From positions 1 to 64,000 of the forward strand of contig FOUN01000002.1 of the NCBI GenBank assembly GCA_900114885.1: a DNA stretch of 64,000 nt, written 5' to 3'. The notes below the pieces were generated by a model. That model did no database searches. It had not been told where the DNA came from and worked only from the letters and a program-made list of their open reading frames with translations. The translations under genes were made by a program, and so were the position numbers. Positions 239 to 61,390 of this stretch are shown piece after piece. Every line of letters starts with the position of its first letter. Position 1 is the stretch's first letter. Origin of the DNA: Psychrobacillus psychrodurans. GTDB lineage: Bacteria; Bacillota; Bacilli; Bacillales_A; Planococcaceae.

Positions 239-530
239 TTGCGTGAACTTATAGATACTATCCAATTCAGTCGATCTATTGAGTAGAAAACAACTTTTAG
301 TAATTCGATTTACACATTTAGGCTGTGAATTAGCAAAGCAATTTGGTAAAGTTATCCTTTCCGCAAGTAAAAGGTAATACTCCGTAAGTAAATCCAGACT
401 TAGAGCAAGTAAATCCTTTACGACAGCAAGTAAACCTCAAATGAGAGTGAGTAAACAATAATTGAGAGCAAGTAAAGACAAATTAAGATCAAACCATTCA
501 ATAATATAGGTATATGTATGTTAAATAAAT
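239..530. repeat. Duplicated intergenic segment, copy A
   Basis: About 290 bases here are repeated with moderate divergence at 807-1121. Shared landmarks are GATACTATCCAAT, GAGTAGAAAACAACTTTTAG, GGTAAAGTTATCCTTTCCGC, a six-unit 21-bp array, and AAACCATTCAATAA with ATGTATGTTAAATAAAT at the end. Both copies follow a copy of the interspersed repeat, so the duplicated unit is repeat plus spacer plus array. No convincing coding frame runs through it. Confidence 0.8.
363..488. repeat. 21-bp-period array, GYAAGTAAA core, six units
   Basis: Six units start at 363, 384, 405, 426, 447 and 468, exactly 21 bases apart. Each begins with GCAAGTAAA, GTAAGTAAA or GTGAGTAAA, followed by 12 bases that differ from unit to unit. 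The period is strict while the rest is free. There are no cas genes and the spacers are far too short for a CRISPR array. Confidence 0.85.
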
Positions 531-572
531 CAATTTCATAAAGAATATTATATTGTTAAATTCGAGCAGGGC

Positions 573-752
573 TGATTTCCTCTCTAGGCGGACGTTTTCC
601 GCGGGCACGGCTTCAATCTCCTCGTCACTACGAAAACATATGCTCCTGCGGTTACTCGTCGCAAAGACATCGGTCAAACAAAGTTTGGCCAATGTCTTTC
701 CTGAGGGGCTTTCAGTTCGCGCTGTTCCCGCTGGAGTTGCCGCCTTTCACTA
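573..752. repeat. Interspersed repeat element, full length, inverted relative to 53508-53696
   Basis: This ~180-bp block is close to the reverse complement of 53508-53696 and also resembles 60775-60963. Its ends are GC-rich (GGCGGACGTTTTCCGCGGGC on one side, CGCTGTTCCCGCTGGAGTTG on the other). The centre holds an inverted repeat, GACATYGG...CCAATGTC. Short open frames across it are by-products of the repeat, since the same pseudo-peptide recurs at the other copies. Similar short GC-rich elements are common between genes of Bacillales; I do not know a formal name for this one. Confidence 0.85.
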
Positions 753-806
753 CAATCAGTTTATACATAGATTAATATCAAGCCCAATATGGAAAACAAG
801 ATGAGT

Positions 807-1121
807 TTGCAAGATTATCTAAAGATACTATCCAATGCAGTCAACCGATTGAGTAGAAAACAACTTTTAGTAATTCGGTTTTACATTTAGACTGTGAATT
901 AGCAAAGTGATGGTCTTCTGTCAATAAGTGATTTGGTAAAGTTATCCTTTCCGCAAGTAAAAGATAATAGTCCGAAAGTAAATATAGGCTTAGAGTAAGT
1001 AAATCCTTTACGACAGCAAGTAACTCTTAGACGGGAGTGAGTAAACAGTAAGTGAGAGCAAGTAAAGAGAAATTAATATAAAACCATTCAATAAGTATAA
1101 GGATATGTATGTTAAATAAAT
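807..1121. repeat. Duplicated intergenic segment, copy B
   Basis: This is the second copy of the segment at 239-530, about 23 bases longer because of an insertion (around GTGATGGTCTTCTGTCAATAA) just before the shared GGTAAAGTTATCC. It includes its own 21-bp array and ends with the same ATGTATGTTAAATAAAT. Point differences are scattered through both copies, so the duplication is not very recent. Confidence 0.8.
953..1078. repeat. 21-bp-period array, GYAAGTAAA core, six units (second copy)
   Basis: Units start at 953, 974, 995, 1016, 1037 and 1058, again exactly 21 bases apart. Cores are GCAAGTAAA, GAAAGTAAA, GTAAGTAAA, GCAAGTAAC, GTGAGTAAA and GCAAGTAAA. Order and spacers match copy A unit by unit with substitutions only. 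No length change has occurred in either copy, so the 21-bp spacing has held while the sequence drifted. Confidence 0.85.
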
Positions 1122-1640
1122 AACCGAAATAGCGTACGAAATTATATCTTCGTGCGCTTATTCTATGAATGAGAAAGTATCTTTTACTAGTTATCCGAAA
1201 ACGCACTTACCTGTTTCTAAGAGTTGTAGGGGGGCAAGACAGACTAACACTATAAGATTAACGAAAAAAGTGATATTGGTTTGTGGGAAGTCACAAACAA
1301 TATCACTAAAAATTCATTTGGTAACAATATAGCAAAACGTCTGTCCAAAGCCCTTAGGTTTGTTCTATTAATTAGCCAAGATACTTTTCACAGTTTAGAC
1401 AGTATAATTTAGAATCTTACACTATTCTCCATAGCAACAAAATTCTCTTATTACAATTCAATTACAAGAAAACTCGAAACTTGTAACCTTATTGTTATAC
1501 AAATGGGTATTTTTAGCTTATGCCATAAAATTATGATATATGTTAAATTTATAATACATAGGTTTTAATTACATTCGTTGGATTGTTTTATGAAATTCTG
1601 TGTTTTAAAATGGAAGAAATAAACGTTCTAGGAGGAACAA
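1122..1640. other. Gene-free leader region upstream of the amidase operon
   Basis: No coding frame with a ribosome site is visible. The region contains the strong hairpin at 1269-1307 and then AT-rich sequence up to the AGGAGG ribosome site at 1630-1635. TATAAT-like words occur (for example near 1406 and 1550) but none has a good -35 partner, so I do not call a promoter. The gene at 1641 may be expressed from an alternative-sigma or weak sigma-A promoter here. Confidence 0.5.
1269..1307 (-). terminator. Strong hairpin with T-run on the minus strand
   Basis: AGTGATATT and GTTTGTG pair with CACAAAC and AATATCACT around a six-base loop, with one unpaired G. Read on the minus strand the stem is followed by TTTTTT, so it looks like an intrinsic terminator for leftward transcription. 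No leftward gene lies just to the right of it. Confidence 0.6.
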
Positions 1641-4196
1641 ATGAAAAAAGTAATCGCATCATCAGTTTTAGCAACTTCTGTCCTTTTGCCGCTTAACCTT
1701 CTTGCTAGTGAAGCACCATCCGTATATGCAGCCTCAACTTCTGCAATATTAGACGACATTCAACAATTGGTTGGTAACAAAGCGCTGCTTACTGAAAATA
1801 ATGTCAACGTCAGAGAGGGTGCTGGTACAGAATTCGATAAAATAACATCTGTACAAGCCGGTCAAATGGTATCTGTACTTGCCAATGAGAAAAATAGTAA
1901 AGGAGAAATATGGTACAAAGTCTCCCTGAATTCGACGGAAGGTTGGATTATTAGTGATTATTTAACAGCAGCTACTGCAGCAGTTAAAGCGTCTACGACT
2001 AAATCTGGAGATTCATATGTAGGTACAACGCAAAAAATAGGGACTAGTGCTTCTAAAATGAGAAGTGGAGCAACAACTGCATATAAAGTAGTAGCTACTA
2101 TACCAGTTGGCACTTCACTTAAAATACTAGGGGCATTTACAAATACCTCTAACGAAATATGGTTCAATGTTGAATATAAAGGGAAAAAAGGCTGGGTATC
2201 TTCTGACTTATTCGTATTGAACGGTACTGCTGGTGAAACAGCAACATCGATGAAAGTAATCAATCAAACAACAATTCATAAAGGCGCTACAAAAAACTAC
2301 ACAGTTGTTTCTACAGCAAAAGTGGGTACGACATTAGTAGTTCATCAAGAATTTACAAATGTTTACAATGAAAAATGGGTTCAAGTTACATATGCCACTG
2401 GGAAAAAAGGCTGGATTCTTGCAACTGCTTTTGAAGATAACTCTATTGCCAATAAAGTTGTAAGTAAAACCTCGACAGTTCATTCGGGAGCTACTAAAAA
2501 CTATAAAACTGTGGCAACGATTCAAATGGGAGTAAAACTAGCAATCCATCAAGAGTTTACAAACGCTTCAAAAGAAAAATGGTATCAAGTAACTTATGCT
2601 GTTGGGAAAAAAGGCTGGATTCCCGCATCCGCATTTGAAAGTGTTTCTACTGTACCCGAAAATCCATCGACTGAAACGCCAAAACCAGAAGAAAATATCG
2701 TTGTAGAGGAAACAAATTTGAAGGTTTCCGTTTCTGTAGCAAATATGCGTTCAGGTCCTGGAATTACTTATGATGTTGTAACTCAATCGAAGTTAAATGA
2801 TCAATTCGTTTCAGCACAATATGCAACAGATAGTAACAATGAAAAATGGTATAAAGTCACTTCGACTAATGGAGATGCATGGTTACATCAATCAGTTGTA
2901 TCAGTAGTAGACAAAGTCGACGATACTCCAGTAGTCACTCCAGGTAATGGGGAAACAGGTACGATTCTACGTTCTAATGCTTTACTGTATGCAAATAGCA
3001 ACTATAACTCAGCGGTTTTAGTAGGCTTACCAAAGAATACGAAATTCACTGTAATGAGCAAATTAGTTTCAACCGATGGGACAACTTGGTTAAACATCCA
3101 GGCAAGTGGAAAGCAAGGTTGGATTCCAGACTTCGAAGTAAATGCAAACCTCCCTATTAAATATGGGACAAAGACGTCTACAGTATATAATGGAGCAAGT
3201 GCTACCGCGAAAAAAGTAGATACAATTTATTTAAGTTCACCGGTAAGAGTATTACGTACACTTAATGGATGGGTAAATATCGAAACACCAACTGAAAAAC
3301 GGGGCTGGATTCAAGCTTCTGTACTTACAGATGTTGCGCCGATTTCACCAGTTTCATTGACGAACGGTAGAACAGAAGTTAGAAATGGCCAAAATTATAT
3401 GGTTTGGTCTAAACCATCCAAGTTCGACATTACTTATTCAATACCATCAACAAACGTGCTTCGTATTTATGGTAATCTCTCAAATATTAACGAGATTAAA
3501 TCGAAGGTTGTTGGTGTGAAGAGCATGAAAGTTGAGAAGGTTTCCGGTGGTACATCGGTATTATTAATCACTTTCGATCCTAATTACACATATACCATTC
3601 GTGATTATAATAACGAATTAACGATTAAAGTAGTTCCAAAAGGTTTGGCAGGTAAGAAAATAGTAATAGATGCTGGTCATGGTGCTAAGGATCCTGGAGC
3701 AGTAGGTAAAAATGGAACAAAGGAAAAAGACGTCAATCTTGCAACTGCTCAATTCCTTAAGGCTGAACTTGAAGCTGCGGGTGCAACAGTAACTCTAACA
3801 CGTAATAGTGATGTTTTCTTGGAGTTGGTTGAGCGTACAAATATCTCAAATAGTTCTGATTATGATGCTTTTATTAGTATACATGCAGATTCATTTAGTT
3901 CTACTTCAAAAGGAACAACAACATATTATAATTCGACAGTTAACTTTAATGGACCAAAGAGTTTGGCACTTGCGAAGAGTATTCAAGCTGATTTAGTAAA
4001 AGCAGTCGGAACTTATAATCGTGGAGTTAAGCAACAAAACTTCTATGTAAATCGTATGAATAAAATTCCGTCTGTGCTAGTGGAACTGGCATTTATATCT
4101 AACCCGACGGAAGAAGCTCAATTGGCTTCTACTTCCTTCCGCAAAAAAGCGGCAGCTGGAATTCGTAAAGGATTAGAAAACTATTTCAATCAATAA
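1641..4196 (+). CDS. Multi-SH3 N-acetylmuramoyl-L-alanine amidase (LytC-type)
   Basis: This is a secreted peptidoglycan amidase of 851 residues that cleaves the bond between MurNAc and L-Ala. A signal peptide covers roughly residues 1-30. About seven SH3b-like repeats follow (about 46-565), each ending in a GW motif such as KGW or RGW, and presumably bind wall peptide or polymer. An AMIN-like segment lies at about 575-655. The C-terminal Amidase_3 domain (about 672-850) shows the zinc ligands in IDAGHG, the Glu of KEKDVNL and the His of SIHADS, plus the catalytic Glu in VLVELAFISN. The start follows AGGAGG at 1630-1635. It leads an operon with the next two genes, an arrangement that recalls lytB-lytC of B. 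subtilis, where the amidase acts in cell separation and motility. Seven SH3 repeats replace the CWB2 wall-binding repeats of B. subtilis LytC. The enzyme class is sure; the physiological role is inferred. Confidence 0.93.
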   Translation: MKKVIASSVLATSVLLPLNLLASEAPSVYAASTSAILDDIQQLVGNKALLTENNVNVREGAGTEFDKITSVQAGQMVSVLANEKNSKGEIWYKVSLNSTEGWIISDYLTAATAAVKASTTKSGDSYVGTTQKIGTSASKMRSGATTAYKVVATIPVGTSLKILGAFTNTSNEIWFNVEYKGKKGWVSSDLFVLNGTAGETATSMKVINQTTIHKGATKNYTVVSTAKVGTTLVVHQEFTNVYNEKWVQVTYATGKKGWILATAFEDNSIANKVVSKTSTVHSGATKNYKTVATIQMGVKLAIHQEFTNASKEKWYQVTYAVGKKGWIPASAFESVSTVPENPSTETPKPEENIVVEETNLKVSVSVANMRSGPGITYDVVTQSKLNDQFVSAQYATDSNNEKWYKVTSTNGDAWLHQSVVSVVDKVDDTPVVTPGNGETGTILRSNALLYANSNYNSAVLVGLPKNTKFTVMSKLVSTDGTTWLNIQASGKQGWIPDFEVNANLPIKYGTKTSTVYNGASATAKKVDTIYLSSPVRVLRTLNGWVNIETPTEKRGWIQASVLTDVAPISPVSLTNGRTEVRNGQNYMVWSKPSKFDITYSIPSTNVLRIYGNLSNINEIKSKVVGVKSMKVEKVSGGTSVLLITFDPNYTYTIRDYNNELTIKVVPKGLAGKKIVIDAGHGAKDPGAVGKNGTKEKDVNLATAQFLKAELEAAGATVTLTRNSDVFLELVERTNISNSSDYDAFISIHADSFSSTSKGTTTYYNSTVNFNGPKSLALAKSIQADLVKAVGTYNRGVKQQNFYVNRMNKIPSVLVELAFISNPTEEAQLASTSFRKKAAAGIRKGLENYFNQ

Positions 4197-4214
4197 TGAA
4201 AGGAAGGTAAACCA

Positions 4215-4910
4215 ATGAAAAAGAAATTATTAGCAACGGTTGGTGCTGTCCTTGGCCTAAGTTTATTATTAACGATCAATACGCCGACTTCGACAAAAGC
4301 GGATTCAAACTTACTATTAGCATCCGTTGAATGGGTACAAGCACAACTAAGCCCACTACAAACAAAAGTAACATCTTTAGAAAAACAACTTGCAGCACAA
4401 GATGCAACTATTAAACAGTTACAAAAAGCAATTGCAGAGGGTGGCAATGTTGTAGTGACACCGCCAACAACTGAACCCTCAACCGAAACACCAGCCGTAG
4501 TCTATACAACTACAAGTGCAAAAGTGCATAGTGGAGCAACACGAAACTATAAAGTTCTTTCAACAATTGCAGCAAATAAAGGACTAACTGTTATCGGCCA
4601 GCATAAAGGGGCAGATGGAGTATGGTATCGTGTAGAAGTTTCATCTACTGTAAAAGGTTGGATCTTCTCAAACGATGTTTCTACAACAAAACCAGGTGAG
4701 TTCATACCTTCAAAAGTTGTAACAAAACAAGCTACAAATGTTCGCAAAGGGGCAACTACTAACTATAAATCTATTGAAACAGTAGTTAAAGGCGCGACAT
4801 TAACCTATTTAGGATCATTTAAAAATGCAAGTGGTGAAACCTGGTATAATGTTCAAACTCCTAAGGGTACTAAAGGTTGGGTGCTAAGTACGCTGACTGA
4901 GGTGAAATAA
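4215..4910 (+). CDS. Secreted SH3-domain protein with N-terminal coiled coil
   Basis: This 231-residue protein has a signal peptide (residues 1-30, cut near TKAD), a short heptad-like helix (about 40-75, WVQAQLSPLQTKVTSLEKQL), a Pro/Thr-rich linker, and two SH3b repeats (about 95-155 and 165-230) very like those of the amidase upstream. It has no catalytic domain. It begins 18 bases after the amidase stop with a GAAAGGAAGG ribosome site, and its stop touches the next start, so the three genes are co-transcribed. A role as a wall-bound partner or targeting factor for the amidase is inferred from context only. Confidence 0.8.
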   Translation: MKKKLLATVGAVLGLSLLLTINTPTSTKADSNLLLASVEWVQAQLSPLQTKVTSLEKQLAAQDATIKQLQKAIAEGGNVVVTPPTTEPSTETPAVVYTTTSAKVHSGATRNYKVLSTIAANKGLTVIGQHKGADGVWYRVEVSSTVKGWIFSNDVSTTKPGEFIPSKVVTKQATNVRKGATTNYKSIETVVKGATLTYLGSFKNASGETWYNVQTPKGTKGWVLSTLTEVK

Positions 4911-6446
4911 TTGAAGAAGAAAGTAATAGCAATCTTATCAGTAGCCTTACTTAGTCTTATTTCAACAAATAGTGCATTAGCATATAAACAAGAGACTTAT
5001 TCCAAACAAGTACAAGTAGAGGTACATAATGCCTCTACAACTTCTCTTAACCTTTCAGGAGTTTACAAGCTCCAAAACTTAACGACAAATGAGATGTTTT
5101 ATGCTTTACCGGATACACCAGTCACTTTTTCGCAGGTAAATGGGGAAGTATCCATCTATCAAGCAGGTGCAGCTATGTTTTCAGCAAAAGGATATGCTTT
5201 ACATGCGATTTCCGGAAATGAAAAAATAGTAGTATTTACCAAAAATGTTGAGGGTAAAAAAGGTGCTACAGTTGATTATGAGACTGTTAAATCTTATACA
5301 GCTTTCCAAGGGGCAAACTTCGTTGATGAATTTACGAATGCCAGTGGGGAAACATGGTACTCTGTTACGGATGATCAAGGTGTTTCATCTTGGATTCCAG
5401 CTACAAGTGGAAGAGTCGCAAATGTAACCTCATTACCTATAGGGAAGACATCAAATGGCAGCGAATATCGTGGTAGTTTTAATGTTGTCAAATCAGGTAC
5501 GGCAGTTCAAATTGTTAATAGACTCGATTTGGAAAACTACTTAAAGGGTGTAATACCGAATGAATCACCAGCTTCATGGCATATTGAAGCGTTAAAAGCA
5601 CAGACAGTTGCTGCACGAAGCTATACATTAAGTAAAGCTGGTATTCTAAGTAGTACGACCAAGGACCAAATGTACAAAGGTTACTCATCAGAACATAAAA
5701 ATACAAATGCTGCGGTAGAAGCTACTAATGGATTAGTAGTAAAAGCAAATGGCAAACTTGTTCAAGCCTATTTCTACTCGACAAGTGGTGGTAAAACCGC
5801 CAATATTGGTGAAGTATGGAATAGTACACAGGTTTCACATTTTGTATCTGTAGACGATTCTATTGAACAATCACCTTATAAAAACTGGACGGTTAGTATA
5901 CCAGTGGCAAATATTTTAAAAAAATTCGGATTTGCATCAACTGATACTTTGCTAGATATCAAGCTAACAAAAGGTGGATCCAACGGGGAAGTTACCGCAG
6001 TAACCGCAATTACTTCTTCTGGAGAGAAAACCATTTCTGGCAATGAATCTGTTATGAGAAACGTATTTTTAGATGCTAAAAATGCATCATTAAAATCAAG
6101 CTGGTTTGACATTTCCTTTACTAAACCAACGGGTGGAACGGACTTAGCTATTCAAGGAGCTAAAGGTTCTACTGAGGTGACATCACTTAACGGAATGTCA
6201 GTTCAAACAGCTTCGGGAGTACTAACAGTTCCAAATGGTTCAGTAAATATACAAACGAACGAAGGCATTATCTCTACAACAGGAGTAACAAGTACAGGAA
6301 TCCAAACAGTAACCGTTAACGGAAAAGGCTATGGCCACCGAATCGGAATGAGTCAATATGGTGCAAAAGCACGCGCTGAAGCTGGCTGGACATACGATCG
6401 TATTCTGAAACATTATTACCAAGGAACAACAATTGAGAAATTCTAA
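4911..6446 (+). CDS. SpoIID/LytB-type wall-modifier protein
   Basis: This 511-residue secreted protein (signal peptide about 1-24) carries a SpoIID/LytB domain. The N-terminal part of that domain, with LDLENYLKGVIPNE and AQTVAARSYT, starts near residue 190, and the C-terminal signature GYGHRIGMSQYGA lies near 470. One SH3-like stretch precedes it (about 105-165). SpoIID is a lytic transglycosylase acting on denuded glycan; LytB is the modifier of amidase LytC. Because it follows a LytC-type amidase, the LytB role is the likelier one here. The start is TTG immediately after the previous TAA; the GAGGTGAAA ribosome site lies inside the previous gene's end, which suggests coupled translation. 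A terminator follows at 6450. Confidence 0.85.
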   Translation: MKKKVIAILSVALLSLISTNSALAYKQETYSKQVQVEVHNASTTSLNLSGVYKLQNLTTNEMFYALPDTPVTFSQVNGEVSIYQAGAAMFSAKGYALHAISGNEKIVVFTKNVEGKKGATVDYETVKSYTAFQGANFVDEFTNASGETWYSVTDDQGVSSWIPATSGRVANVTSLPIGKTSNGSEYRGSFNVVKSGTAVQIVNRLDLENYLKGVIPNESPASWHIEALKAQTVAARSYTLSKAGILSSTTKDQMYKGYSSEHKNTNAAVEATNGLVVKANGKLVQAYFYSTSGGKTANIGEVWNSTQVSHFVSVDDSIEQSPYKNWTVSIPVANILKKFGFASTDTLLDIKLTKGGSNGEVTAVTAITSSGEKTISGNESVMRNVFLDAKNASLKSSWFDISFTKPTGGTDLAIQGAKGSTEVTSLNGMSVQTASGVLTVPNGSVNIQTNEGIISTTGVTSTGIQTVTVNGKGYGHRIGMSQYGAKARAEAGWTYDRILKHYYQGTTIEKF

Positions 6447-6449
6447 TAC

Positions 6450-6481
6450 AAAAAGGCAACCGCATTTGTGGTTGCCTTTTT
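6450..6481 (+). terminator. Intrinsic terminator after the amidase operon
   Basis: AAAAAGGCAACC pairs with GGTTGCCTTTTT around the loop GCATTTGT, ending in a T-run, four bases after the stop codon of the SpoIID/LytB-type gene. Confidence 0.9.
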
Positions 6482-6627
6482 GTATTATCTATTTAGAAGA
6501 ATCGCTTAGATGCTAAGATTTTTCTTATTACTATCGTTAATTTCATCTGGACGTTTTACCACATTAACCTCGATTATTTAGCTGATACTGATTTAAATTG
6601 TCTGTTTTTGAAAAGTGGACATGGTTT

Positions 6628-6748
6628 ATTGGAGCGCAGGGCGGCGACTCCAGTATGAACAGCGCGAGCTGAAGACCCTGGACTGAGTTAAGCGAAGGAA
6701 GCGGCTGAAGCCGTGTCCACGGAAAGCGTCTGCCTGGAGCGGAAATAA
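6628..6748. repeat. Interspersed repeat, shortened variant
   Basis: The two ends match the family (TTGGAGCGCAGGGCGGCGAC ... GGAAAGCGTCTGCCTGGAGC), including AACAGCGCGAGCTGAAGA. The central GACATTGG hairpin found in the other copies is replaced by a shorter, different segment. It lies between two convergent terminators. Confidence 0.75.
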
Positions 6749-6792
6749 ACTACTAAAAGCTCAATTATTAAATTGCTACCTTTAAATTAATG

Positions 6793-6832
6793 AAAAAGGC
6801 AGCCCAGAATTTCACATCAATTCGGGGCTGCT
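6793..6832 (-). terminator. Intrinsic terminator of the CAP-domain gene
   Basis: On the minus strand GCAGCCC and GAATT pair with AATTC-GGGCTGC around a short loop and are followed by TTTTTC. The site lies just past the stop of the CAP-domain gene at 6842. Confidence 0.85.
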
Positions 6833-6841
6833 TCCTATCTA

Positions 6842-8011
6842 TCAAGGTTTTATAAAGTTCTCAGTATAATATGGAATTGAGCCATAGACCCATTTTGCAA
6901 AGTAAACACCTACACCCAATTGTGTGTAAGCCGTGCTAATGATATTTTTACGATGACCTAAAGAATTCATCAAAGCTTCATGAGCAAAGTAGGGACTCGT
7001 ATAGCCCATTGCAATATTCTCTCCAGCATTTCTATATTGTATGCTGCCGTTCGAAAGGCGGTCAAATGGTGATTCACCCTTTAAATTATCATGGTTAAAA
7101 TAATCATTTAAACCCATGTCTACACTATGACCTCGTGCAACATTAGCAACCTTCGAAGAGTTTTGAAGAACAGTCACTCCCTGCGCCTTACGCTCGGCAT
7201 TCGTTAATTCGAATAAAAGAGTTTCATAGCTTGTTTCTAAAGTCGTAGATTTTTTTGGATATAAATTAGGATTATTATCAATCATCTCGTGATCAATTAA
7301 ATAGATAGCAGAAATTTTATTATCATTATGCACATCTATGAAAAAGTTTGCTTCATATTTAGGTAGATCATAAGTAATAATTTCGATTGGATAGGTATTT
7401 CCTGTAGTTTCATAGTTTGTGCCCAGTTTACTTTCTAACTGTTCAATAGTATTAGTTACTGAAACTCCACTTACTTGATAACTTTTATCTTTCGTATAAA
7501 TAGATGCTACTTTATTTTTTAAATAGCTTATTGCATAAAAGTCATTGTAGTTATCGTGATAAACGGAAGTTGGCGCACCAAATTCATTTACAACAGCTAC
7601 TTTTTGCGGATCTAGTTTTGCTATTGCAGTTGTTTTGTTATCTCCAATTGAAAGAGAAGTTGGAGTGGTTTTTACACAGTTTAACTGACTTAGTTTACTT
7701 TTAGATGGTGTCTGATACAAAATATCTTTATTGTCTAGAATAAATAACCCGCCACCAAGATGATAGTATGTCGATTTGTTGGCGTATACTCTGTAATTCT
7801 CACTAGGTTTTACAGTTCTAGAAGCCACAAATTTTCCATTGATATTTTTATAAACTGTCGTTGGTTTTTGTATCAAAACTCGGCCGATTTGCCCGGACTT
7901 TAGTTGTACTCCATCCCAGGAAACAATGGAAGGACAATCTGCTGCTTGAGAGATCGTTGGAACTGAGATTAAAGCGAATAGTAATAATACTACGATAGAT
8001 AGTTTTTTCAT
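6842..8011 (-). CDS. Secreted CAP-domain (SCP/PR-1-like) protein
   Basis: This 389-residue protein has a signal peptide (about 1-23, ending SQA), an SH3-like N-terminal part (about 25-110), a region like the CAP-associated N-terminal domain of Bacillus YkwD-type proteins (about 120-245), and a C-terminal CAP domain (about 262-388). The CAP signatures LTNAERKAQGV, ARGHSVDM, FNHDN, NAGENIAMGY and GHRKNIIS are all present. Bacterial CAP proteins of this type are extracellular and their biochemical role is mostly unknown. It is monocistronic, with its own terminator at 6793 and an AGGAGA-type ribosome site in front of the start. Confidence 0.88.
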   Translation of the reverse strand: MKKLSIVVLLLFALISVPTISQAADCPSIVSWDGVQLKSGQIGRVLIQKPTTVYKNINGKFVASRTVKPSENYRVYANKSTYYHLGGGLFILDNKDILYQTPSKSKLSQLNCVKTTPTSLSIGDNKTTAIAKLDPQKVAVVNEFGAPTSVYHDNYNDFYAISYLKNKVASIYTKDKSYQVSGVSVTNTIEQLESKLGTNYETTGNTYPIEIITYDLPKYEANFFIDVHNDNKISAIYLIDHEMIDNNPNLYPKKSTTLETSYETLLFELTNAERKAQGVTVLQNSSKVANVARGHSVDMGLNDYFNHDNLKGESPFDRLSNGSIQYRNAGENIAMGYTSPYFAHEALMNSLGHRKNIISTAYTQLGVGVYFAKWVYGSIPYYTENFIKP

Positions 8012-8041
8012 AGATTCATCTCCTCATAGTAAAAGTATAAA

Positions 8042-9963: not shown

Positions 9964-9998
9964 TAAATACGGCGTTTTAATTATAGGAGGAAATGAAC

Positions 9999-10673
9999 AT
10001 GACAAAAATAATAATCATAGATGATCACCAACTATTTCGCGAGGGAGTAAAACGCATTTTAGATTTTGAAGACTCTTTCGAAGTAATAGCAGAAGGTGAC
10101 GACGGTAATGATGTTCTTGGTCTTTATGATAAGCATCAACCCGACGTAGTACTAATGGACATCAATATGCCTACTAAAAATGGAGTAGAAGCAACAGGAG
10201 AATTACTAGAAAAATACCCAGAAGCTAAAGTAATCATCCTATCTATCCATGACGATGAGTCCTATGTATCACATGCGCTTAAAACAGGTGCACTTGGATA
10301 CATGCTAAAAGAAATGGACGCCAATGCAATCGTCTCAGCCATCAAAGTAGTAGCAAAAGGCGGGTCATACTTACATCCAAAAGTAACACGTAACCTAGTT
10401 GCAGAATTCCGTCGCCTAAGCGAACGTGAAAACAAAGGGAACTTCCATCAAACAGAAATTCGTCGTCCATTCCATTTACTAACTAAACGTGAATGTGAAG
10501 TCCTACAATTACTAACAGATGGCCAAAGCAACCGCACAATCGGAGAAACACTATTCATCTCCGAAAAAACCGTGAAAAATCACGTATCAAGCATACTTCA
10601 AAAAATGAACGTAAACGACCGTACCCAAGCCGTAGTAACCGGCATCAAAAACGGTTGGGTTGAAGTTCGATAA
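9999..10673 (+). CDS. degU: Response regulator DegU
   Basis: DegU is the NarL/FixJ-family regulator paired with DegS. The receiver domain (about 1-120) has the acidic pair IIDDHQ, the phospho-acceptor Asp in VVLMDINMP (residue 54), and the Lys of YMLKEMDA. The LuxR-type helix-turn-helix at the C-terminus ([12 protein letters not shown] ... [14 protein letters not shown]) is nearly identical to that of B. subtilis. Two ATGs are possible. The one at 9999 lies eight bases after AGGAGG, while that at 9993 is only two away, so 9999 is preferred (224 residues). A terminator-like hairpin and then a 21-bp-period array follow. Confidence 0.96.
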
Positions 10674-10683: not shown

Positions 10684-10722
10684 TGAATCCCACTCCAGCT
10701 TTTGAGCTTTTGGAGTGGGATT
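10684..10722 (+). terminator. Hairpin after degU
   Basis: AATCCCACTCCA pairs with TGGAGTGGGATT around a GAGC-containing loop, just past the degU stop. The T-run is weak, so termination may be incomplete. Confidence 0.7.
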
Positions 10723-10738: not shown

Positions 10739-11160
10739 TTGCGATTCGGTCGAAGTATATTGCGATTCTGAGGAGTGATCTTTCGATTCGAAACATCTAA
10801 TTTGCGATTCATCCCAAATCTGGATTAGTCTTGCGATTCGCGGTGCCGACCTTGTGATTATGCTTAAGTATATTGCGATTCTCGCAAGCGACCTTTCGAT
10901 TCAAAGCACCTAATTTGCGATTCCCCCTAAATCTGGATTCGACTTGCGATTGGCGGTAACGACCTTGCGATTACGCCGAAGTATATTGCGATTCTAACAA
11001 GCGATCTTTCGATTCGAAGCACCTAACTTGCGATTCATCCCAAATCTGGATTCGACTTGCGATTCGTGGTACCGACCTTGCGATTTCACCGAAGTATATT
11101 ATGATTCTAACAAGCAATATTTCGATTCAAAACACCTAATTTGCGATCCCCCCTAAACTC
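10739..11160. repeat. 21-bp-period TTGCGATTC array with 113-bp higher-order repeat
   Basis: About twenty units begin with TTGCGATTC or a variant (TTTCGATTC, TTGTGATTA). Most are 21 bases long. They form a higher-order repeat of five subunits with lengths 21, 21, 21, 29 and 21, total 113. The higher-order copies start at 10739, 10852, 10965 and 11078, exactly 113 apart, the last being partial. Each subunit class keeps its own 12-base tail in every copy (for example CGAAGTATA in the first, GCACCTAA in the third). The array fills the interval between the convergent degU and NERD genes. No gene or recognised element explains it. Confidence 0.9.
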
Positions 11161-15774: not shown

Positions 15775-16191
15775 ATGGGTGAATTAAAAAATTGTCCTTC
15801 ATGCGGCGAGTTTTTTAACTATACAGGAATGAGAGAAGTATGTAACAACTGCGCAATGAACGAAGAAAAACTATACGAAATAGTATATCGCTTCCTCCGC
15901 AAGCGCGAAAACCGTGCAGCAACAGTAGAGCGAATTGTAGAAGCAACCGGCGTTGAAGAATCACTATTACACAAGTGGGTACGCAAAAACCGTCTGCAAC
16001 CAGCAATGTTCCCAAATTTAGGGTATCCATGCGACAGCTGTGGAAAAATCACGAACCAAGGCAAACTTTGTAAAACATGTACGGAAGATTTAAAATCAGG
16101 ACTCCGTCAATTTGATGCAGCAAAAGAATTCAGAGACAAAGTAGCAAACCAGGATCATGGCACTTACCATGCAGATATTAAGAGAAAATAA
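15775..16191 (+). CDS. yvyF: YvyF flagellar-operon protein
   Basis: This 138-residue protein has two zinc-knuckle-like pairs, CPSCGEFF ... CNNC at the N-terminus and CDSCG ... CKTC near 85-105, flanking a helical winged-helix-like centre. It matches the small protein found beside flgM in B. subtilis (YvyF), which has been reported as a regulator of flagellar genes; the mechanism is not visible here. The GGAGG ribosome site supports the ATG start, and a terminator overlaps the stop. Confidence 0.88.
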   Translation: MGELKNCPSCGEFFNYTGMREVCNNCAMNEEKLYEIVYRFLRKRENRAATVERIVEATGVEESLLHKWVRKNRLQPAMFPNLGYPCDSCGKITNQGKLCKTCTEDLKSGLRQFDAAKEFRDKVANQDHGTYHADIKRK

Positions 16192-16216
16192 ACTCTCACT
16201 TTGTGTGGGAGTTTTT
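16190..16216 (+). terminator. Intrinsic terminator after yvyF
   Basis: AACTCTCAC pairs with GTGGGAGTT around TTTGT, followed by a T-run. It separates the com/yvyF unit from the flgM operon. Confidence 0.8.
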
Positions 16217-16261: not shown

Positions 16262-16420
16262 GATTTCTACACAAAAGCCACGAGGTCACTAAAAGCTACC
16301 CAAGTTCCGACCAAAGGCACATAGATTCAACCCAATCAAAAAACATTTTCACCCAACCAAGCACTAGTTCCACCTAAAGACCCTTCAATTCCCCTAACTG
16401 CTTTAATTCCCAAGACCTAT
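16262..16420. repeat. Degenerate 21-bp-period array, RTTCNACCYAA core
   Basis: Core words GTTCCGACCAA, ATTCAACCCAA, TTTTCACCCAA, GTTCCACCTAA and ATTCCCCTAAC begin at 16304, 16325, 16346, 16367 and 16388, exactly 21 bases apart. Two weaker units precede them. The intervening bases are unrelated. This is the same 21-bp spacing as the arrays at 363, 953, 10739 and 61055, with a third, different core. It lies between the yvyF terminator and the flgM promoter. Confidence 0.75.
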
Positions 16421-52873: not shown

Positions 52874-52874
52874 T

Positions 52875-53318: not shown

Positions 53319-53338
53319 TTGTTCTCATCCTTCCATTC

Positions 53339-53696: not shown

Positions 53697-53735
53697 CTTT
53701 GTTTAGATTTCACTACTAATTACTTCATTATGAAA

Positions 53736-53762
53736 TTGACTTAATTTAATAAAAATTATAAT
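53736..53762 (+). promoter_or_regulatory. Possible sigma-A promoter of the LysM-NlpC/P60 gene
   Basis: TTGACT (53736-53741) and TATAAT (53757-53762) are separated by 15 bases, shorter than the optimal 17. It lies 60 bases before the gene. Confidence 0.45.
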
Positions 53763-53821
53763 GTGATTGTTTAATAGAAATGGTATGATGAAGTTAATAG
53801 TTAAATAGAAGGAGGGTCTTT

Positions 53822-54571: not shown

Positions 54572-54590
54572 GTAGCAAGGGGGAATATGC

Positions 54591-56279
54591 ATGAAATGGA
54601 CTATTGCTAGGAAAATGTGGCTTGGTTTTGTTGCTATTTTAGTATTATTAATCACTGTGTCGGTTTTATCGATTATGACGATAATCGACAGTAGTGAAAA
54701 GTATCAATTTTTATTGGATGATCGAGCGGTTAAGGTAAATCTTGTGAAAGAAATCGAGATTTCGCAAAAAGACACTGCTAGTGCAGTATTGGATTATTTA
54801 GTATCTAATACTGATGCATCAAGACAAAACGTAGACGTACATCAGCAAAGAACTACTGAATTGACTGCTGAGTTGCGAAACAATTTGTTTTCCCCTGAGG
54901 CGTTAGAAATGATGACAGAGTTTGATAAGAAAAATGATATGTTTGCCGCTATTAATGTAGATGTAATAACAGCACAAACAAATAAAGATACATCAACAGT
55001 TAATAAACTAACTGGAACATCGAAAACGCTGAATACAGATGCGCTATCCATTTTGGATGAAATTGAGCAGTTTTTACAGGCTGATATGGATAAAACAAGA
55101 GACGAGCTTTCAGGTTATGAGGTTTCAGCTAAAATATTTATGAGCTGTTTAGCTATATTGGGAGTTATACTAGGAATTCTTTTAGCGTATTTCATCAGCA
55201 GAAGTATTTCAAAACCGGTGAAACGTGTTACCGCAGGTCTTACTGAGATTGCAACTGGTAACTTAACCGTAGAGCCTATAGTGATTAAAAATAAAGATGA
55301 AGTAGGCGAAATGGCGACAGCCTTCAACATGATGTCTAAGGACCTGCGTCAAATAGTTTCTGGAGTTCGGGATTCTTCTATGCAGCTTGCTGCTAATGCA
55401 GAGGAACTTTCTGCGAGCTCAGAAGAAAGTTTGGCATCCTCACAAATGGTTGCAAAATCTGCCGAAGCACAAATGGTTTCAAGTGATGAACAAGTGCAGC
55501 ATATGGATACTTCGGTCCAGTCGTTGACAGAGCTATCCCAAGGCATCGATCAAATTAGTATTAGTAATGAAGAAATGTTACATGCAGCAAATGATGTACA
55601 AAATCTAGTCCAAAAAGGTTCTAATGTTGTATCGGAAGTTGCTAAACAAATGGATACAATCCACTCTACTTTTAATGATACGACGACAATCATGCAAAAT
55701 ATGGAGAAGCATTCCAATGATATACAAACCGTAACTTCTTTAATAACGGATATATCAGAACAGACCAATCTACTTGCCTTAAACGCAGCTATCGAAGCAG
55801 CTAGGGCTGGTGAATATGGCAAAGGCTTTGCTGTTGTAGCGGATGAGGTACGTAAACTTGCAGAGCAATCTAAAAACTCTGCGACGGAAATAGCATCAAT
55901 GGTTCAACTGATTCAAAGTGCTTCTGGTGATGCTGTTCATGCTATTATAGATGGCGGGAAGAAAGTAGAAGCCGGCATCGCTAAAACAACGGAATCTTTA
56001 ACAGTATTCCAAAATATTGAAGAAGCAGTAGGAGAGGTTGGTTACAAAGTGGGATCTGTTTCTGCAGCTATTGAACAGATACAGGCAATGGCGGAGTCAG
56101 TTTCTCAGGGGGCTGTAGAAGTTCAGCGACTCGCAACACTTGCAGCAGATGGCGCTAATGATACAAGTGCCGCAACGGAGCAACAAATTGCGGCAAATGA
56201 AGAAATTTCGTCCAATGCGCAGGCACTAGCAGATCTTGCAGAAGCGTTACAAAATAATGTTAGTCACTTTAAAATATAG
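54591..56279 (+). CDS. Methyl-accepting chemotaxis protein (first of three)
   Basis: This 562-residue chemoreceptor has a transmembrane helix at about 10-32, an extracytoplasmic four-helix-bundle-type sensor (about 33-185), a second transmembrane helix (about 186-208), a HAMP domain ([20 protein letters not shown], about 210-262), and a long cytoplasmic signalling coil with the conserved tip ([20 protein letters not shown]). The ligand is unknown. The three tandem copies share almost identical signalling domains but different sensors. It starts 20 bases after the endopeptidase stop; the two could be co-transcribed. Confidence 0.94.
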
Positions 56280-56289
56280 CTTAAGTTTT

Positions 56290-56327
56290 TCTATCCTATG
56301 TCGTTTAATACGGCATAGGATATTTTG
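56290..56327 (+). terminator. Hairpin after the first chemoreceptor gene
   Basis: TATCCTATGTCG pairs with CGGCATAGGATA (one T-G pair), followed by TTTTG. Confidence 0.75.
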
Positions 56328-56432
56328 CTGAAAATATTCAAAATGTGTATGTCCAAATACCCTTAATTTATGTATAATAGTATAGTTACTTAGATTTATA
56401 TAATGTAGTTGCATAGGAAAAAGGGGATATAT

Positions 56433-58115
56433 ATGAAGTTAACGATTTCAAGGAAAATGTGGTTTGGTTTTTGTGCGGTTTTAGTATTACTAGTAATAAC
56501 TAGTATTCTTACTCAAAGTGGAACAACTAAATTAACAGATAGATATAAGGATTTACTCGATGATGATATAACTAAAATTAATCTAGTAGAGGAAATTATA
56601 GTTATACAAAAAGACATGTCAACTGCCGTTTTAGAGTTTGTTATGTTCGGTAAGAGAGATGCTGTAGATAAGTTTGATGCTGAGATAGAAAAAGGTATGA
56701 CTGCAGCTAGAGCTTTGATTGAAAAATCTACAGATGCAGAATCGGTTAAGTTGATGAAAGATCTTCAAACCGAAACGGAGAAGTTATTTGAAAACAACAA
56801 TAAGATTATTGAGCTAAAAACTGCAAATAAACCATTTGAAGAATATGCAGAAAAATCTTCTGAACTTAATGAAGGTGTACTCAGTATTTTAGCTGAAATA
56901 AAAAAAATTCAAGAAGACAATATGGCAGATACAAGAGCAGAGTTAGAAGATTATGAAGATAAAACAACGATAGCACTAAGTATTATAACTGTATTAGCAA
57001 TTGTTGTTGGTATTTTAATATCATATTTTATAGGTAGATCCATTTCTAAACCAATTCAAAAGGTTACAGCTGGTCTTGAGGAAATTGCAAAGGGTAACTT
57101 AGCGATTGAGCCAATCATTATTAAAAACAGAGATGAAGTCGGTGTAATGGCGACAACCTTTAACAAAATGTCGAACGATTTACAACAAATTGTATCTAGT
57201 GTCCGCGATTCCTCAATGCAATTAGCTGCGAATGCAGAAGAACTTTCTGCAAGCTCAGAAGAAAGTCTTGCGTCCTCTCAAATGGTAGCGAAATCTGCTG
57301 AAGAGCAAATGATTGCAAGTGAACAACAGGTAAATCATATGGAGTCTTCCATGAGTTCAATGGGAGCACTCCAACAAGGCGTATCAGAAATCGCATATAG
57401 TAATGATGAAATGCTACAAGCAACAGATGGCGTGAAAATATTAGTAACAAAAGGTTCCTCTGTTGTTTCTGAAGTAGCTGGTCAAATGGAAACAATTCAT
57501 ACTACATTCACTGAAACAACTGAAATCATGAAAAACATGGCTAAACACTCAGACGAAATACAAAACATTACATCACTGATTACCGATATTTCCGAACAAA
57601 CGAACCTTCTTGCATTAAATGCTGCAATTGAAGCAGCTCGTGCTGGAGAATACGGTAAAGGCTTTGCTGTTGTAGCAGAAGAAGTTCGTAAACTTGCAGA
57701 GCAATCGAAAAACTCTGCGTCTGAAATTGAGTCGATGGTACAGTTAATTCGCACTGCCTCTGGATCTGCCGTTAAAGCAATAACGACTGGTGGGGATAAG
57801 GTAGAGCAAGGCCTTGCAAAAACTACAGAATCTCTAAATGTATTCAATGAAATTGAAACTAGTGTAGGGGATGTAGTTCAAAAAGTAGAACTAGTGTCGA
57901 CTGCAATTGGACAAATTCAGGAAATGGCTAATTCTGTTACAGAGAGTGCCGGGAAAGTACAAACACTTGCTACACAGGCTGCGGATGGGGCTAGTGATAC
58001 AAGTGCGGCGACTGAACAACAATTAGCTGCAAACGAAGAAATATCTTCCAATGCACAATCTCTAGCAGATTTAGCAGAGAAACTACAAAATGAAGTAAGT
58101 CATTTTAAACTATAA
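56433..58115 (+). CDS. Methyl-accepting chemotaxis protein (second of three)
   Basis: This is a 560-residue receptor of the same plan: transmembrane helix near 8-28, four-helix-bundle sensor, second helix near 184-206, HAMP ([20 protein letters not shown]) and signalling coil. I take ATG 56433 behind AAAAGGGG; ATG 56409 adds eight residues before the ribosome site. The sensor is quite different from the first copy, while the cytoplasmic half is nearly the same. Confidence 0.94.
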
Positions 58116-58123
58116 TTTTCAAT

Positions 58124-58157
58124 GACTCTAAATCGTCAGTTGGATTTAGAGTCTTTT
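58124..58157 (+). terminator. Intrinsic terminator after the second chemoreceptor gene
   Basis: GACTCTAAATC pairs with GATTTAGAGTC around an eight-base loop, followed by TTTT. Confidence 0.88.
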
Positions 58158-58204
58158 ATCGCTAATAAAAAATATAAATCGTTTTTAGAAGAAAAGGGGA
58201 TAAT

Positions 58205-59887
58205 ATGAAGCTAACAATTTCTAAGAAATTATGGGGTGGATTTTCAGCAGTATTGGTTTTATTAATAATAGCGAGTGTCATGTCTATGTGGACAACAAAT
58301 GATGTGTCGACTAGATATGATTCATTAATTGATGAAGAAATGGAACGTGTGTCTCTAGTCGAGAAAGTGGAAGTAATTCAAAAAGAAATGTCCACATCAG
58401 TATTAGAGTATCTAATGTTCAGTAAGCTTTCGTCTGTAGAGAAACTAGAAGCCGATTATAAACAAGTTATGGAGATTATAACTTCTTTATCTAAAGATCT
58501 TAATAATAAAGCTGCAATAGAATTAGTAGAAAAGTTACAAGAACAATCTAAACAGTTATTTGAAGCAAACACTGAAATGATTGAGTTGAAAAAGGTCAAT
58601 GGTATGTATCAAAAGGCAGCATCTCAATCTACTCAGCTTAACCTAGAAATTAGTGAAGCATTAGTTGAATTAAAAACAATTGAGGAAAAAAGTGCTAGTC
58701 AAACAAGAGAAGAATTGGATACATATGTGACAATGTCAAATATTATTACATTATTACTTACTATTCTTAGTGTTGTAATTGGAATTCTTGTATCACACTT
58801 CATCAGTAGAAGTATAGCTAGACCTATTAAGAAAGTAACAAATGGTCTTGCAGAAATAGCAGATGGTAATTTAACGATTGAGCCTATTGTTATTAAGAAT
58901 AGGGATGAAGTAGGCGAGATGGCATCAACGTTCAATAAAATGTCGAATGATCTACAACGAATTGTATCTGGTGTGCGCGATTCATCGATGCAGCTAGCAG
59001 CAAATGCGGAAGAACTATCAGCAAGCTCTGAAGAAAGTCTTGCTTCCTCCCAGATGGTTGCAAAATCTGCCGAAGCGCAAATGGTCGCAAGTGAAGAACA
59101 AGTAGGGCAAATGAATGCCTCTATGCATTCCATGACAGACTTACAAGAAGGGGTTTCCGAAATTGCTTCTAGTAATGAAGACATGTTAAAAGCAACAGAT
59201 GGTGTAAGATCACTCGTAACACAAGGATCTTCTGTAGTAACGAATGTAGCTAGTCAAATGAATACTATTCATGAGACTTTTAATGAAACTACAGAAATCA
59301 TGAAAAACATGGCGAAACATTCCAACGAGATTCAAAATATTACATCGCTTATAACAGACATTTCTGATCAAACGAATCTACTCGCATTAAATGCAGCAAT
59401 TGAAGCAGCTCGTGCTGGGGAATATGGAAAAGGCTTTGCAGTAGTTGCAGAAGAAGTACGTAAATTAGCTGAGCAATCCAAAAACTCTGCTTCTGAAATA
59501 GCATCAATGGTACAGTTAATCCAATCAGCATCTAGCTCCGCAGTAAAAGCAATTACTACTGGGGGAGAAAAAGTTGAAGAAGGCATAACGAAAACAACAG
59601 AATCATTAAATGTCTTCCAACAAATTGAAACAAGTGTAGATGATGTAGTCCAAAAAGTAGAATCGGTTACAACGGCAATAAGTCACATTTCAGAAATAGC
59701 AAGTTCCGTAACAGACAGTGTCCAACAAGTTCAAACACTAGCAACACACGCTGCAGACGGAGCAAGCGACACTAGCGCTGCAACCGAACAACAACTAGCA
59801 GCAAACGAAGAAATTTCTTCAAGTGCACAGTCTTTAGCAGATTTAGCAGAGAAACTACAAAATGAAGTAAGTCATTTTAGAATATAA
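58205..59887 (+). CDS. Methyl-accepting chemotaxis protein (third of three)
   Basis: This third receptor also has 560 residues with the same domain order and a HAMP reading [20 protein letters not shown]. Its signalling half is closest to the second copy (both end with LQNEVSHF). Each receptor gene has its own terminator, so they are probably separate transcripts. None ends in the NWETF-like pentapeptide used for CheB/CheR docking in enterics, as is usual in Firmicutes. Confidence 0.94.
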
Positions 59888-60201
59888 AACAAGAAACGAC
59901 ACCTATTTGTAATAGCAATAGGTGTCGTTTTTTGCATAAAGGAAGGGGAATGTTGCGAGAAGGGCTTTATATGTTGAGTAAATGGCATAAATCGTTGTGC
60001 CAAAATGAAAACATTGCGCAAAAATATCCCTGCAAATTTACACAAAAGATAATCACAAATTGTTAGGGAACACCATATCGAATATATATTAAAACTAGGG
60101 AGCACCCCTATTTATGTCTAAATTATCTTTTAATATTCTTGAACTCGTCACAAAAGATTCGATGAAAATAAAGTATACTTGCAGTAGGGAGTTGTTTAGA
60201 A
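59888..60201. other. Intergenic region after the chemoreceptors
   Basis: Apart from the terminator at 59895 and the ribosome site (GTAGGGAG) of the next gene, I see no gene, repeat or convincing promoter. A TATACT at about 60175 may be a -10 box but has no good -35. Confidence 0.5.
59895..59933 (+). terminator. Intrinsic terminator after the third chemoreceptor gene
   Basis: AACGACACCTATT pairs with AATAGGTGTCGTT around a nine-base loop, followed by a T-run. Confidence 0.92.
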
Positions 60202-60633
60202 ATGTATACATTTATTATATTCATACATGTGATTAGTGCAGTTTTATCAATTGGGCCATTTTTTGTGCTATTTCCTTTATTAAATAGGATGAAAGGTAAA
60301 AATAAAGAAATGTTAGATACATCCTTAGAGGTGTTTCAAGCGGCGATTCGTCTAGTGAAACACGCTGGTCATGTGCTTGTTGGTTCGGGTATTCTACTTG
60401 TCTGGCAGGGAAATTGGCCATGGACGACATCATGGGTGATTATGACAATTCTAGTTATGGCAAGTTCCATATTATTTTTGGCTAAAGCATTTAAGCCTAA
60501 TATTCGTGAATTCCAAGCAGGAACGATTGATCTTGATACACTCACAAAAAAATTAAACTCTAACGTGTGGAAATATATCTTATTATTACTAATCATGCTA
60601 TGGTTCATGGTTGCAAAACCTAATTTATGGTAA
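60202..60633 (+). CDS. DUF2269-like four-helix membrane protein
   Basis: This 143-residue protein is almost entirely membrane-spanning, with four hydrophobic helices (about 2-26, 50-68, 75-93 and 122-140). The pattern HVISAVLSIGPFFVLFPLL and VKHAGHVLVGSGILLVW, with His residues in helices 1 and 2, fits the DUF2269 family. The function is unknown. It is a single gene followed by a terminator. Confidence 0.75.
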   Translation: MYTFIIFIHVISAVLSIGPFFVLFPLLNRMKGKNKEMLDTSLEVFQAAIRLVKHAGHVLVGSGILLVWQGNWPWTTSWVIMTILVMASSILFLAKAFKPNIREFQAGTIDLDTLTKKLNSNVWKYILLLLIMLWFMVAKPNLW

Positions 60634-60637
60634 CGGA

Positions 60638-60668
60638 AAACCTTTCTCTTTGTTGAGAAAGGTTTAGC
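60638..60668 (+). terminator. Terminator after the DUF2269-like gene (first copy)
   Basis: AAACCTTTCTC pairs with GAGAAAGGTTT around TTTGTT. The same hairpin sequence recurs at 61016, on the far side of a repeat element. This copy has lost the T-run (AGCTTG follows). Confidence 0.75.
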
Positions 60669-60774
60669 TTGACGACAAAAGTATTTTTATAAACTGCTAT
60701 GAGTAATAATAAATATCTTTAAAGAAGTTGCTTTATCTAAATAAAAGTATATATAGTGGAAACCTTTAAGGAGT

Positions 60775-60963
60775 TGTTTATAAGGCAAGGACCACCACGA
60801 AGACTCCTGTGGGAACAGCTTGAGCAGAAGACCCCGCAGGAAGGACATTGGTCGAACTTTGTTTGACCAATGTCTTTGCGACGAGTAACCGCAGGAGCAT
60901 ATGTTTTCGCAGTGACGAGGAGGCTGAAGCCAAGCCCACGGAAAGCGAAGTGGTGGCCCTTGC
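60775..60963. repeat. Interspersed repeat element, diverged full-length copy
   Basis: It has the family's central inverted repeat GGACATTGG...CCAATGTC and the conserved stretch CGACGAGTAACCGCAGGAGC. The ends differ more from the other copies (AGGACCACCACGAAGACTCC at the left; AAAGCGAAGTGGTGGCCCTT at the right), and together these ends can pair (GGACCACCAC with GTGGTGGCCC). It lies between two copies of one terminator hairpin. Confidence 0.85.
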
Positions 60964-61015
60964 TGATTTTAGTATACAACTCTATGCACCAAAAATTGAG
61001 TTTCTCTACAGTCTG

Positions 61016-61047
61016 AACCTTTCTCTTTGTTGAGAAAGGTTTTTTTC
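61016..61047 (+). terminator. Second copy of the same terminator hairpin
   Basis: AACCTTTCTC, TTTGTT and GAGAAAGGTT repeat the hairpin at 60638, here followed by a full T-run. The two copies bracket the repeat element. Confidence 0.85.
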
Positions 61048-61054
61048 TTATTAA

Positions 61055-61390
61055 CTTGCGATTCACTTTCCGCAGTCCTAAATACTCTCGCAATTTGCGA
61101 TTCGCAAAGCCGAACTTGCTATTTACCCCGTTTGATTTGCGATTTACCTTATACAACTTGCGATTCTCTGTCCGCAGTCCCTAAATCCTCTCGCAATTTG
61201 CGATTCCCAAAGTTGAACTTGCGATTTGCCCCGTTTAATTTGCGATTTACCTCATACAACTTGTGATTCTCCGTCCGCAGTCCCTAAATCCTCTCGCAAT
61301 TTGCGATTCACAAAGCCAAACTTGCGATTTTTCCGTTTGATTTGCGATTTACCTCATTCAACTTGCGATTCGCCATCTACAGATACAAGA
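61055..61390. repeat. 21-bp-period YTTGCGATT array with ~103-bp higher-order repeat
   Basis: Units begin with CTTGCGATT or TTTGCGATT (variants GCTATT, GTGATT). Each higher-order copy has one 40-base unit (containing CCGCAGTCCCTAAATCC) followed by three 21-base units with tails AAAGCCGAA, CCCGTTTGA and CCTCATACAA. Copies start at 61055, 61157, 61260 and 61362, that is 102, 103 and 102 apart. The core word is that of the array at 10739, but tails and higher-order pattern differ. Open frames here are by-products of the period. Confidence 0.88.

Follow-up and report, generated by a model that had tools for sequence, protein, structure and literature searches.

Arrays in the Window

The window, that is, the whole stretch of 64,000 nucleotides from the soil bacterium Psychrobacillus psychrodurans analysed here (bases 1–64000 of contig 22 in a genome of 4.0 Mb and 47 contigs), contains five arrays in which a short word recurs at a step of about 21 bp, all given on the forward strand and all lying in gaps between genes. 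The 21-bp stepping of the five arrays had been proposed in a preliminary description and is confirmed, with array 3 as the weaker case: when 8-mers present in at least four copies are chained at lags of 7–60, all seven chains of the window (7/7) fall at lag 21, and five first-order Markov resamples of the window give zero chains.

Array 1 (363..488) consists of six GYRAGTAAA words at exact 21-bp steps and belongs to a dispersed family with homologous flanks, while array 2 (953..1078) consists of six GNRAGTAAM words, also at exact 21-bp steps, and together with its flanks is a local duplicate of array 1 (169 nt, 88% identity, offset 590). The GCAAGTAAA-type words thus stand at 363+21n and 953+21n, six per array, with zero exceptions. 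Array 4 (10739..11148) comprises 19 TTGCGATT words in 21-bp blocks of 4, 5, 5 and 5 separated by 29-bp steps (15 steps of 21 bp, 3 of 29 bp), with a higher-order repeat of 113 bp. Array 5 (61056..61370) has 13 TTGCGATT words, one standing alone, followed by three four-word blocks with a step of about 21 bp; eight of its steps are 21 bp and one is 20 bp, its breaks measure 39–40 bp, and its higher-order repeat is 103 bp. The period had been called strict, which is correct within blocks; the breaks of 29 or 39–40 bp between blocks were missing from that account.

Array 3 (16283..16408) is formed by degenerate RTTCNACCYAA words at about 21 bp and is missed by the 8-mer chain scan. Within these bounds, which were picked post hoc after inspection, lag-21 identity is 0.457, a value reached by 0/1000 resamples (scan-corrected p 0.01); the bounds first described, 16262–16420, give p 0.009 at lag 21, but lag 20 does best there and p is 0.057 after scan correction. 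When orthologous gaps of related species were compared, without resamples, lag 21 came out on top in L031, L032 and L033 and ties with 19 and 20 in L035; L034, L038 and L039 favour other lags, and L036 and L037 are too short. The array 3 word, GAGTTCCACCCAA, is visibly repeated at 21 bp in the L033 gap.

A hairpin at 10686..10722, read by eye and without a tool score, lies between array 4 and the response-regulator gene (9993–10673), whose product is 98% identical to its counterpart in Psychrobacillus sp. OK028. Similarly, a terminator-like hairpin with a T-run, also read by eye, occupies 16190..16216, after a YvyF-family gene (end 16191) and before array 3, and an intrinsic-terminator-like hairpin with a T-run (61016..61046, −11.3 kcal/mol) directly precedes array 5. 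Families matched among the seven flanking proteins examined are a response regulator, a NERD-domain protein, YvyF, an amidase, IlvD and, weakly, DUF2269. An inverted pair of another repeat, around GGTCAAACAAAGTTTG...GCGACGAGTAACCGCAGGAGCATATG, was seen by eye at 540–760, between arrays 1 and 2, and at 60800–60960, just before array 5. The sole Rfam match at the gathering threshold is a T-box leader (RF00230) at 63505–63756.

Since 21 nt equal seven codons, the arrays could be imagined as decayed coding heptapeptide repeats; a period divisible by three agrees with this, and open reading frames (ORFs) overlap many arrays in a cruder gene call. However, breaks of 19, 20, 29 and 40 bp do not suit this idea, which has a negligible probability overall and is refuted for the window, where each of the five arrays has stops in all six frames.

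Generality of the 21-bp Period

The preliminary description also held that a common constraint sets the period, and the excess at lag 21 beyond the window supports it. Across 80 related-species loci around the response-regulator gene (1.56 Mb), the same scan found 108 chains, of which 95 are at lag 21, 7 at lag 42 and one each at 7, 9, 19, 20, 41 and 52; resamples of 20 of the 80 loci gave zero chains. A lag-21 chain occurs in 33/80 loci, distributed, in a hand count by record title, over Psychrobacillus (9/9), Ureibacillus (6/7), Paenisporosarcina (3/4), Rummeliibacillus (2/3), Lysinibacillus (10/23), Viridibacillus (1/2), Kurthia (1/6), Planococcus/Planomicrobium (0/19) and others (1/7). In a 420-kb sample of the genome to which the window belongs, 26/27 chains are at lag 21; this sample draws on 19 of 21 sources, two all-N ones having been dropped, and includes the window and five stretches chosen for TTGCGATT pairs. 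Two 50-kb stretches of Escherichia coli contain no chain at any scanned lag. Pooled over 125 arrays, the 1253 steps include 999 of precisely 21 bp.

Departures from a period of 21 exist: in other genera, a CGCAGATAA-type array at L110 12700–12915 has a period of 41 (20 plus 21) and a related CGCAAATAA array at L099 10775–10865 has a period of 20. The contig of L108, titled Arthrobacter beigongshangensis, carries 21-bp arrays, and its response regulator shares 85% identity with the one in the window; the record is perhaps mislabelled or contaminated. In Planococcus/Planomicrobium, near-identical 42-nt repeats overlap ORFs (L047 646–929, L058 631–872, L069 199–479, L074 249–636); these probably encode a repeat protein, and their unit sequence differs among species.

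Unit Anatomy and Blocks

The anatomy of the unit can be read directly from sequence logos of distinct Psychrobacillus units (218 for TTGCGATT, 528 for GCAAGTAA and 94 for GTTGCG). Core positions hold 1.3–2 bits, partly by construction because the core was used to select the units; some neighbours hold 0.4–1.5 bits, and the other linker positions at most 0.3 bit. The site covers about 12 positions (the core, an A at −3 and partial neighbours), or about 14 for GTTGCG, and the unit consists of a site of about 12 bp and about 9 nearly free bases.

The units are grouped into blocks in the words that were followed, with lengths counted over runs of three or more words. For GCAAGTAA, 53/121 distinct runs have exactly six words, seven or eight never occur and nine occurs twice; for TTGCGATT, five is found in 23/52 runs and the maximum is six; for GTTGCG, five is found in 34/87 runs and more than five in 3/87. 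This block limit points to putative assemblies of about five or six. Higher-order repeats of 102–103 bp are shared by unrelated words of Psychrobacillus, Lysinibacillus and Ureibacillus, beside others of 82, 113 and 124–125 bp, and repeats of 84, 115, 140, 166 and 206 bp occur in other arrays. A lattice test over 95 array-unique breaks, leaving out steps of 20–22, 41–43, 62–64 and 83–85, gives a helix-lattice R of 0.72 near 10.3 bp. This value is kept as no more than suggestive of a phasing of the breaks to single helix turns, as steps of 19, 40 and 61 also equal 19 plus multiples of 21.

Reuse and Shared Grammar of the Words

A given word turns up at numerous unlinked loci while the linkers vary freely, and sister species differ in their word sets. 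For instance, exact 21-bp pairs of GCAAGTAA number 202 at no fewer than 26 places in the P. psychrodurans genome (reversed control 0), and such a pair is present in only 5/19 genomes of the genus. TTGCGATT pairs occur in 8/12 same-genus genomes, at 7 places in the P. psychrodurans genome, and as single pairs in 3/109 other genomes, the reversed pattern giving one match among the 121 genomes. GTTGCG triples are found in 13/19 genus genomes, with none in P. psychrodurans itself and none for the reversed control.

Downstream of the response regulator, 9/10 Psychrobacillus loci have an array in the gap, with differing words: TTGCGATT words in the window, L032, L034, L036 and L037, a variant of it in L038, and GTTGCG-type words in L031, L033 and L039, with none at threshold in L035. 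Differing words at one gap indicate an array-wide switch of word while the array stays put.

The window arrays had been credited with three unrelated core words, which is overstated. On the opposite strand TTGCGATT reads AATCGCAA, with G as the next base in 68% of units, and GCAA(G) is common to it and GCAAGTAAA. A 29-word set was assembled from 49 array consensuses of the 80 loci, reduced to 26 by removing 23 that had a 6-mer in common with a retained word from their own genus, and three Psychrobacillus words entered by hand. These 29 words share a weak GC-RRR-WAAA grammar across genera: they score 189 against 144 ± 6 for letter shuffles (0/40 as high), and 186 against 146 ± 7 for noncoding 18-mers from the same loci (0/100) or 142 ± 7 for GC-matched ones (0/60).

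Placement Relative to Genes and Terminators

An association with convergent gene ends, one of the checks suggested for the arrays, was found. Placement was counted in gaps of at least 150 bp of the 80 loci, with array-overlapping ORFs of less than 250 aa excluded. Arrays are held by 22/80 convergent, 19/287 tandem and 1/132 divergent gaps (divergent versus the rest, p 3e-5; convergent versus tandem, p 2e-6), although the loci are orthologous regions and the gaps are not independent. Without Psychrobacillus the counts are 14/64, 17/270 and 1/130, respectively, and in a cruder gene call of the 80 loci plus the window, 3/53 arrays with both neighbours known lie between divergent genes. In the Psychrobacillus stretches, many of which were selected for holding words, arrays occur in 33/146 tandem, 20/57 convergent and 4/42 divergent gaps. 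The arrays also sit behind terminators. In the tandem gaps with an array, a terminator precedes the array in 17/19, follows it in 2 and was not found in 2; in the convergent ones, the terminator of at least one gene lies before the array in 21/22 and a terminator also lies beyond it in 10/22. In the 33 tandem gaps of the Psychrobacillus stretches, it lies before the array in 17, after in 3 and inside in 3, and none was found in 15.

The words are on the sense strand in 28/33 tandem gaps of the first Psychrobacillus set, which would suit an RNA element acting in transcripts as a small RNA or a protein-binding RNA, a possibility also considered by the discoverers of similar repeats, and PMC8625621 reports that 52-nt satellites of B. 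coagulans are transcribed. However, in G117, a complete genome with stretches partly in common with the first set, the sense bias is 13/21 (p 0.38), while 28/41 agree with the leading strand (p 0.03); a sense-strand orientation rule, which is confounded with replication, was therefore dropped. If read in the direction of a common motif, TTGCGATT and GCAAGTAAA arrays would moreover face in opposite directions. The terminators that precede most arrays in tandem gaps also count against an RNA element, and RNA folding of 60 of 119 arrays gave a mean z of −0.03 and 0.08 on the two strands. RNA structure is thus not supported, nor is coding, and action in RNA appears quite improbable.

Another explanation is intrinsic curvature or wrapping, for example by HU or gyrase, in which a bent word every two turns would produce a planar curve and sequence would matter through the bend only. 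The period agrees with this, 21 bp being the whole number near two turns of B-DNA, and a wedge model predicts a slight excess of curvature over the 119 arrays (mean z 0.78, with 20% above 2). The median z, however, is 0.43, 13% of arrays fall below −1, and exact 8-bp words exceed what curvature needs, so that this explanation is improbable, if a little less so than RNA.

Proposed Mechanism

With RNA structure absent and curvature slight, a row of sites at the DNA level remains. It is tentatively proposed, from sequence comparison and with somewhat less than even confidence, that the arrays are rows of sites for a putative sequence-specific DNA-binding protein. Linkers of fixed length and nearly free sequence, reuse of words, their coordinated change and the grammar across genera fit a specific protein that binds cooperatively. 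Sites of about 12 bp two helical turns apart would line up the bound subunits along a single helix face, some four to six to a block. Helix geometry and protein–protein spacing would fix the period, leaving the linkers free in sequence and fixed in length, and the word would drift with the specificity of the protein, being common within a genome and different between species. Behind terminators, and above all between convergent genes, such a row may form a boundary at the DNA level that blocks read-through transcription, insulates supercoils or serves as a nucleoid anchor. The period, the division into site and linker, the reuse of words, the blocks of the followed words and the placement are observed; the protein, its cooperative binding and the boundary function are what we infer from them.

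Turnover and the Satellite Alternative

The main rival is neutral or selfish satellite turnover, in which slippage and unequal exchange at a two-turn step set by replication or topoisomerase would generate and spread arrays that persist only where harmless, behind terminators. Rapid turnover is evident: besides the higher-order repeats, copy number differs between orthologous gaps, for instance 5 versus 19 and 31 versus 11 words. Duplication has also contributed, since about a dozen GCAAGTAAA arrays, including arrays 1 and 2, have homologous flanks, which indicates that this subset was partly spread by duplication. A dispersed element of about 210 bp, made of 65–110 bp of conserved upstream sequence and usually six GCAAGTAAA words, was observed at window 280–490 and in about a dozen paralogues (e.g., L141, L142, L143, L155, L156, L205 and L207). 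A shared origin of all arrays had been named as a possible refutation of the common constraint. The nearly free linkers oppose one recent origin, while the GCAAGTAAA subset has its homologous flanks and the words are perhaps related.

What speaks against satellite turnover is that duplication copies entire units, yet the linkers are free while the words are identical at unlinked loci; moreover, periods besides 21 and 42 make up only 6/108 chains, and a grammar is common to words from different genera. Satellite turnover is considered rather unlikely, though the most serious of the alternatives.

Divergence was compared in 19 pairs of orthologous gaps. Linkers differ there at 31.5% (884/2810), above the cores, although unit gain and loss misaligns units. 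In the 5 of these pairs with no more than six gap columns in the array, counts summed from the rows are 9/228 for cores, 53/309 for linkers and 138/1776 for flanks; a previous comparison of 140 pairs, most of them paralogous, had yielded 6.6%, 32.9% and 16.7%, respectively.

Several observations weigh against the proposed protein, and some of them favour the satellite alternative. Core divergence over the 19 pairs (11.9%, 164/1374) is no less than that of the noncoding flanks (12.7%, 544/4296), and the strictest rules leave one pair (0/48 versus 4/65, p 0.14) or two (1/96 versus 4/130, p 0.40), so that selection on the words lacks a clean demonstration. Neutral insertions would be tolerated at the same places, behind terminators and off divergent promoters, and such tolerance accounts for the placement equally well. 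Several words, such as CCAGGTAGA and TTCCAACTTGGA, fit the grammar poorly, so that there may be more than one word family. Blocks are not universal, the L077 array having 25 words with few breaks. The 31 breaks outside Psychrobacillus follow a lattice of 21 bp (R 0.75) no worse than one of 10.5 bp (R 0.70), and a break of 18–19 bp is out of phase given a helix repeat of 10.5. No binding protein has been identified, and no screen for candidates was made.

Comparison with Known Systems

Plasmid iterons and the operator arrays of ParR or omega type are direct repeats on one helix face that are bound cooperatively. The arrays described here, in contrast, occupy dozens of chromosomal loci, and the seven flanking genes examined in the window include no initiator or partition gene of the kind that accompanies a replicon origin. 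The repetitive extragenic palindromic (REP) sequences and bacterial interspersed mosaic elements (BIME) of enterobacteria are imperfect palindromic units found in numerous copies between genes, close to gene ends. The arrays resemble them in copy number, intergenic position and proximity to gene ends, but their words are non-palindromic, stand in direct orientation and have a fold z of about 0. Clustered regularly interspaced short palindromic repeats (CRISPR) have repeats of about 23–47 nt, spacers of about 30 nt and cas genes, whereas words of 8–12 bp and linkers of 9–13 bp are found here; no cas search was made. BLASTN of array 4 against plasmids and of array 1 against phages gave no match.

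The closest relatives are published. In PMC8161180, Subirana and Messeguer reported in 2021 a total of 781 tandem repeats of 20–21 nt in 176 Bacillus genomes, mostly non-coding and species-specific, of constant size with variable sequence. A genome may hold several families, the repeats contain a short characteristic sequence (TCGCGG in B. weihaiensis), and a few variants of 40–41 occur. The authors noted the two helix turns and proposed a polymerising protein or a small RNA, leaving the function open. Their definition, in which at least 60% of units have one length (±1) of 20–21 nt, describes the pooled arrays here (999/1253 steps of 21), as does their non-coding character, the window arrays having stops in every frame and the arrays lying in gaps between called genes; sequence that varies among species, genomes with several same-sized families and a short characteristic word are likewise shared. 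Hence, the preliminary suggestion of a new class of extragenic element is not upheld: constant size with variable sequence was already known for Bacillus, and the arrays belong to the Subirana–Messeguer class. The 52-nt repeats of the same authors likewise combine constant size with free sequence, but have another unit length and are not in the window; a 52-bp tandem array of 12 copies was observed in Ureibacillus (L098 13608–14220), beside several 21-bp arrays on the same contig.

Relative to the Bacillus genomes of that report, the genera here extend to Psychrobacillus, Lysinibacillus, Ureibacillus, Rummeliibacillus, Paenisporosarcina and others. The words 'convergent' and 'terminator' are absent from the main text of PMC8161180, and block structure, cross-genus grammar and gene-end placement were not found in the parts examined; the titles and abstracts listed in literature searches yielded no such arrays in Psychrobacillus or Lysinibacillus and no protein binding them. 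The new elements are the division of the unit into site and linker, word reuse at unlinked loci, the grammar, the blocks, the placement at terminators and gene ends, and the switching of words between sister species.

Biological Meaning

With the anatomy described here, 'constant size, no sequence conservation' becomes a claim about a single family of DNA-binding proteins that can be put to the test, for which probe sequences are at hand, as are matched species that have or lack a given word. In a broader and rather doubtful extension, many Caryophanaceae and, if Subirana's repeats are included, other Bacillota may possess an undescribed chromosomal boundary system formed by a drifting family of DNA-binding proteins. 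These would assemble in blocks of five or six subunits along a single helix face, on sites spaced by two turns, downstream of terminators and in convergent gaps. If this is true, word and protein would co-evolve at such a pace that the words differ even between sister species.

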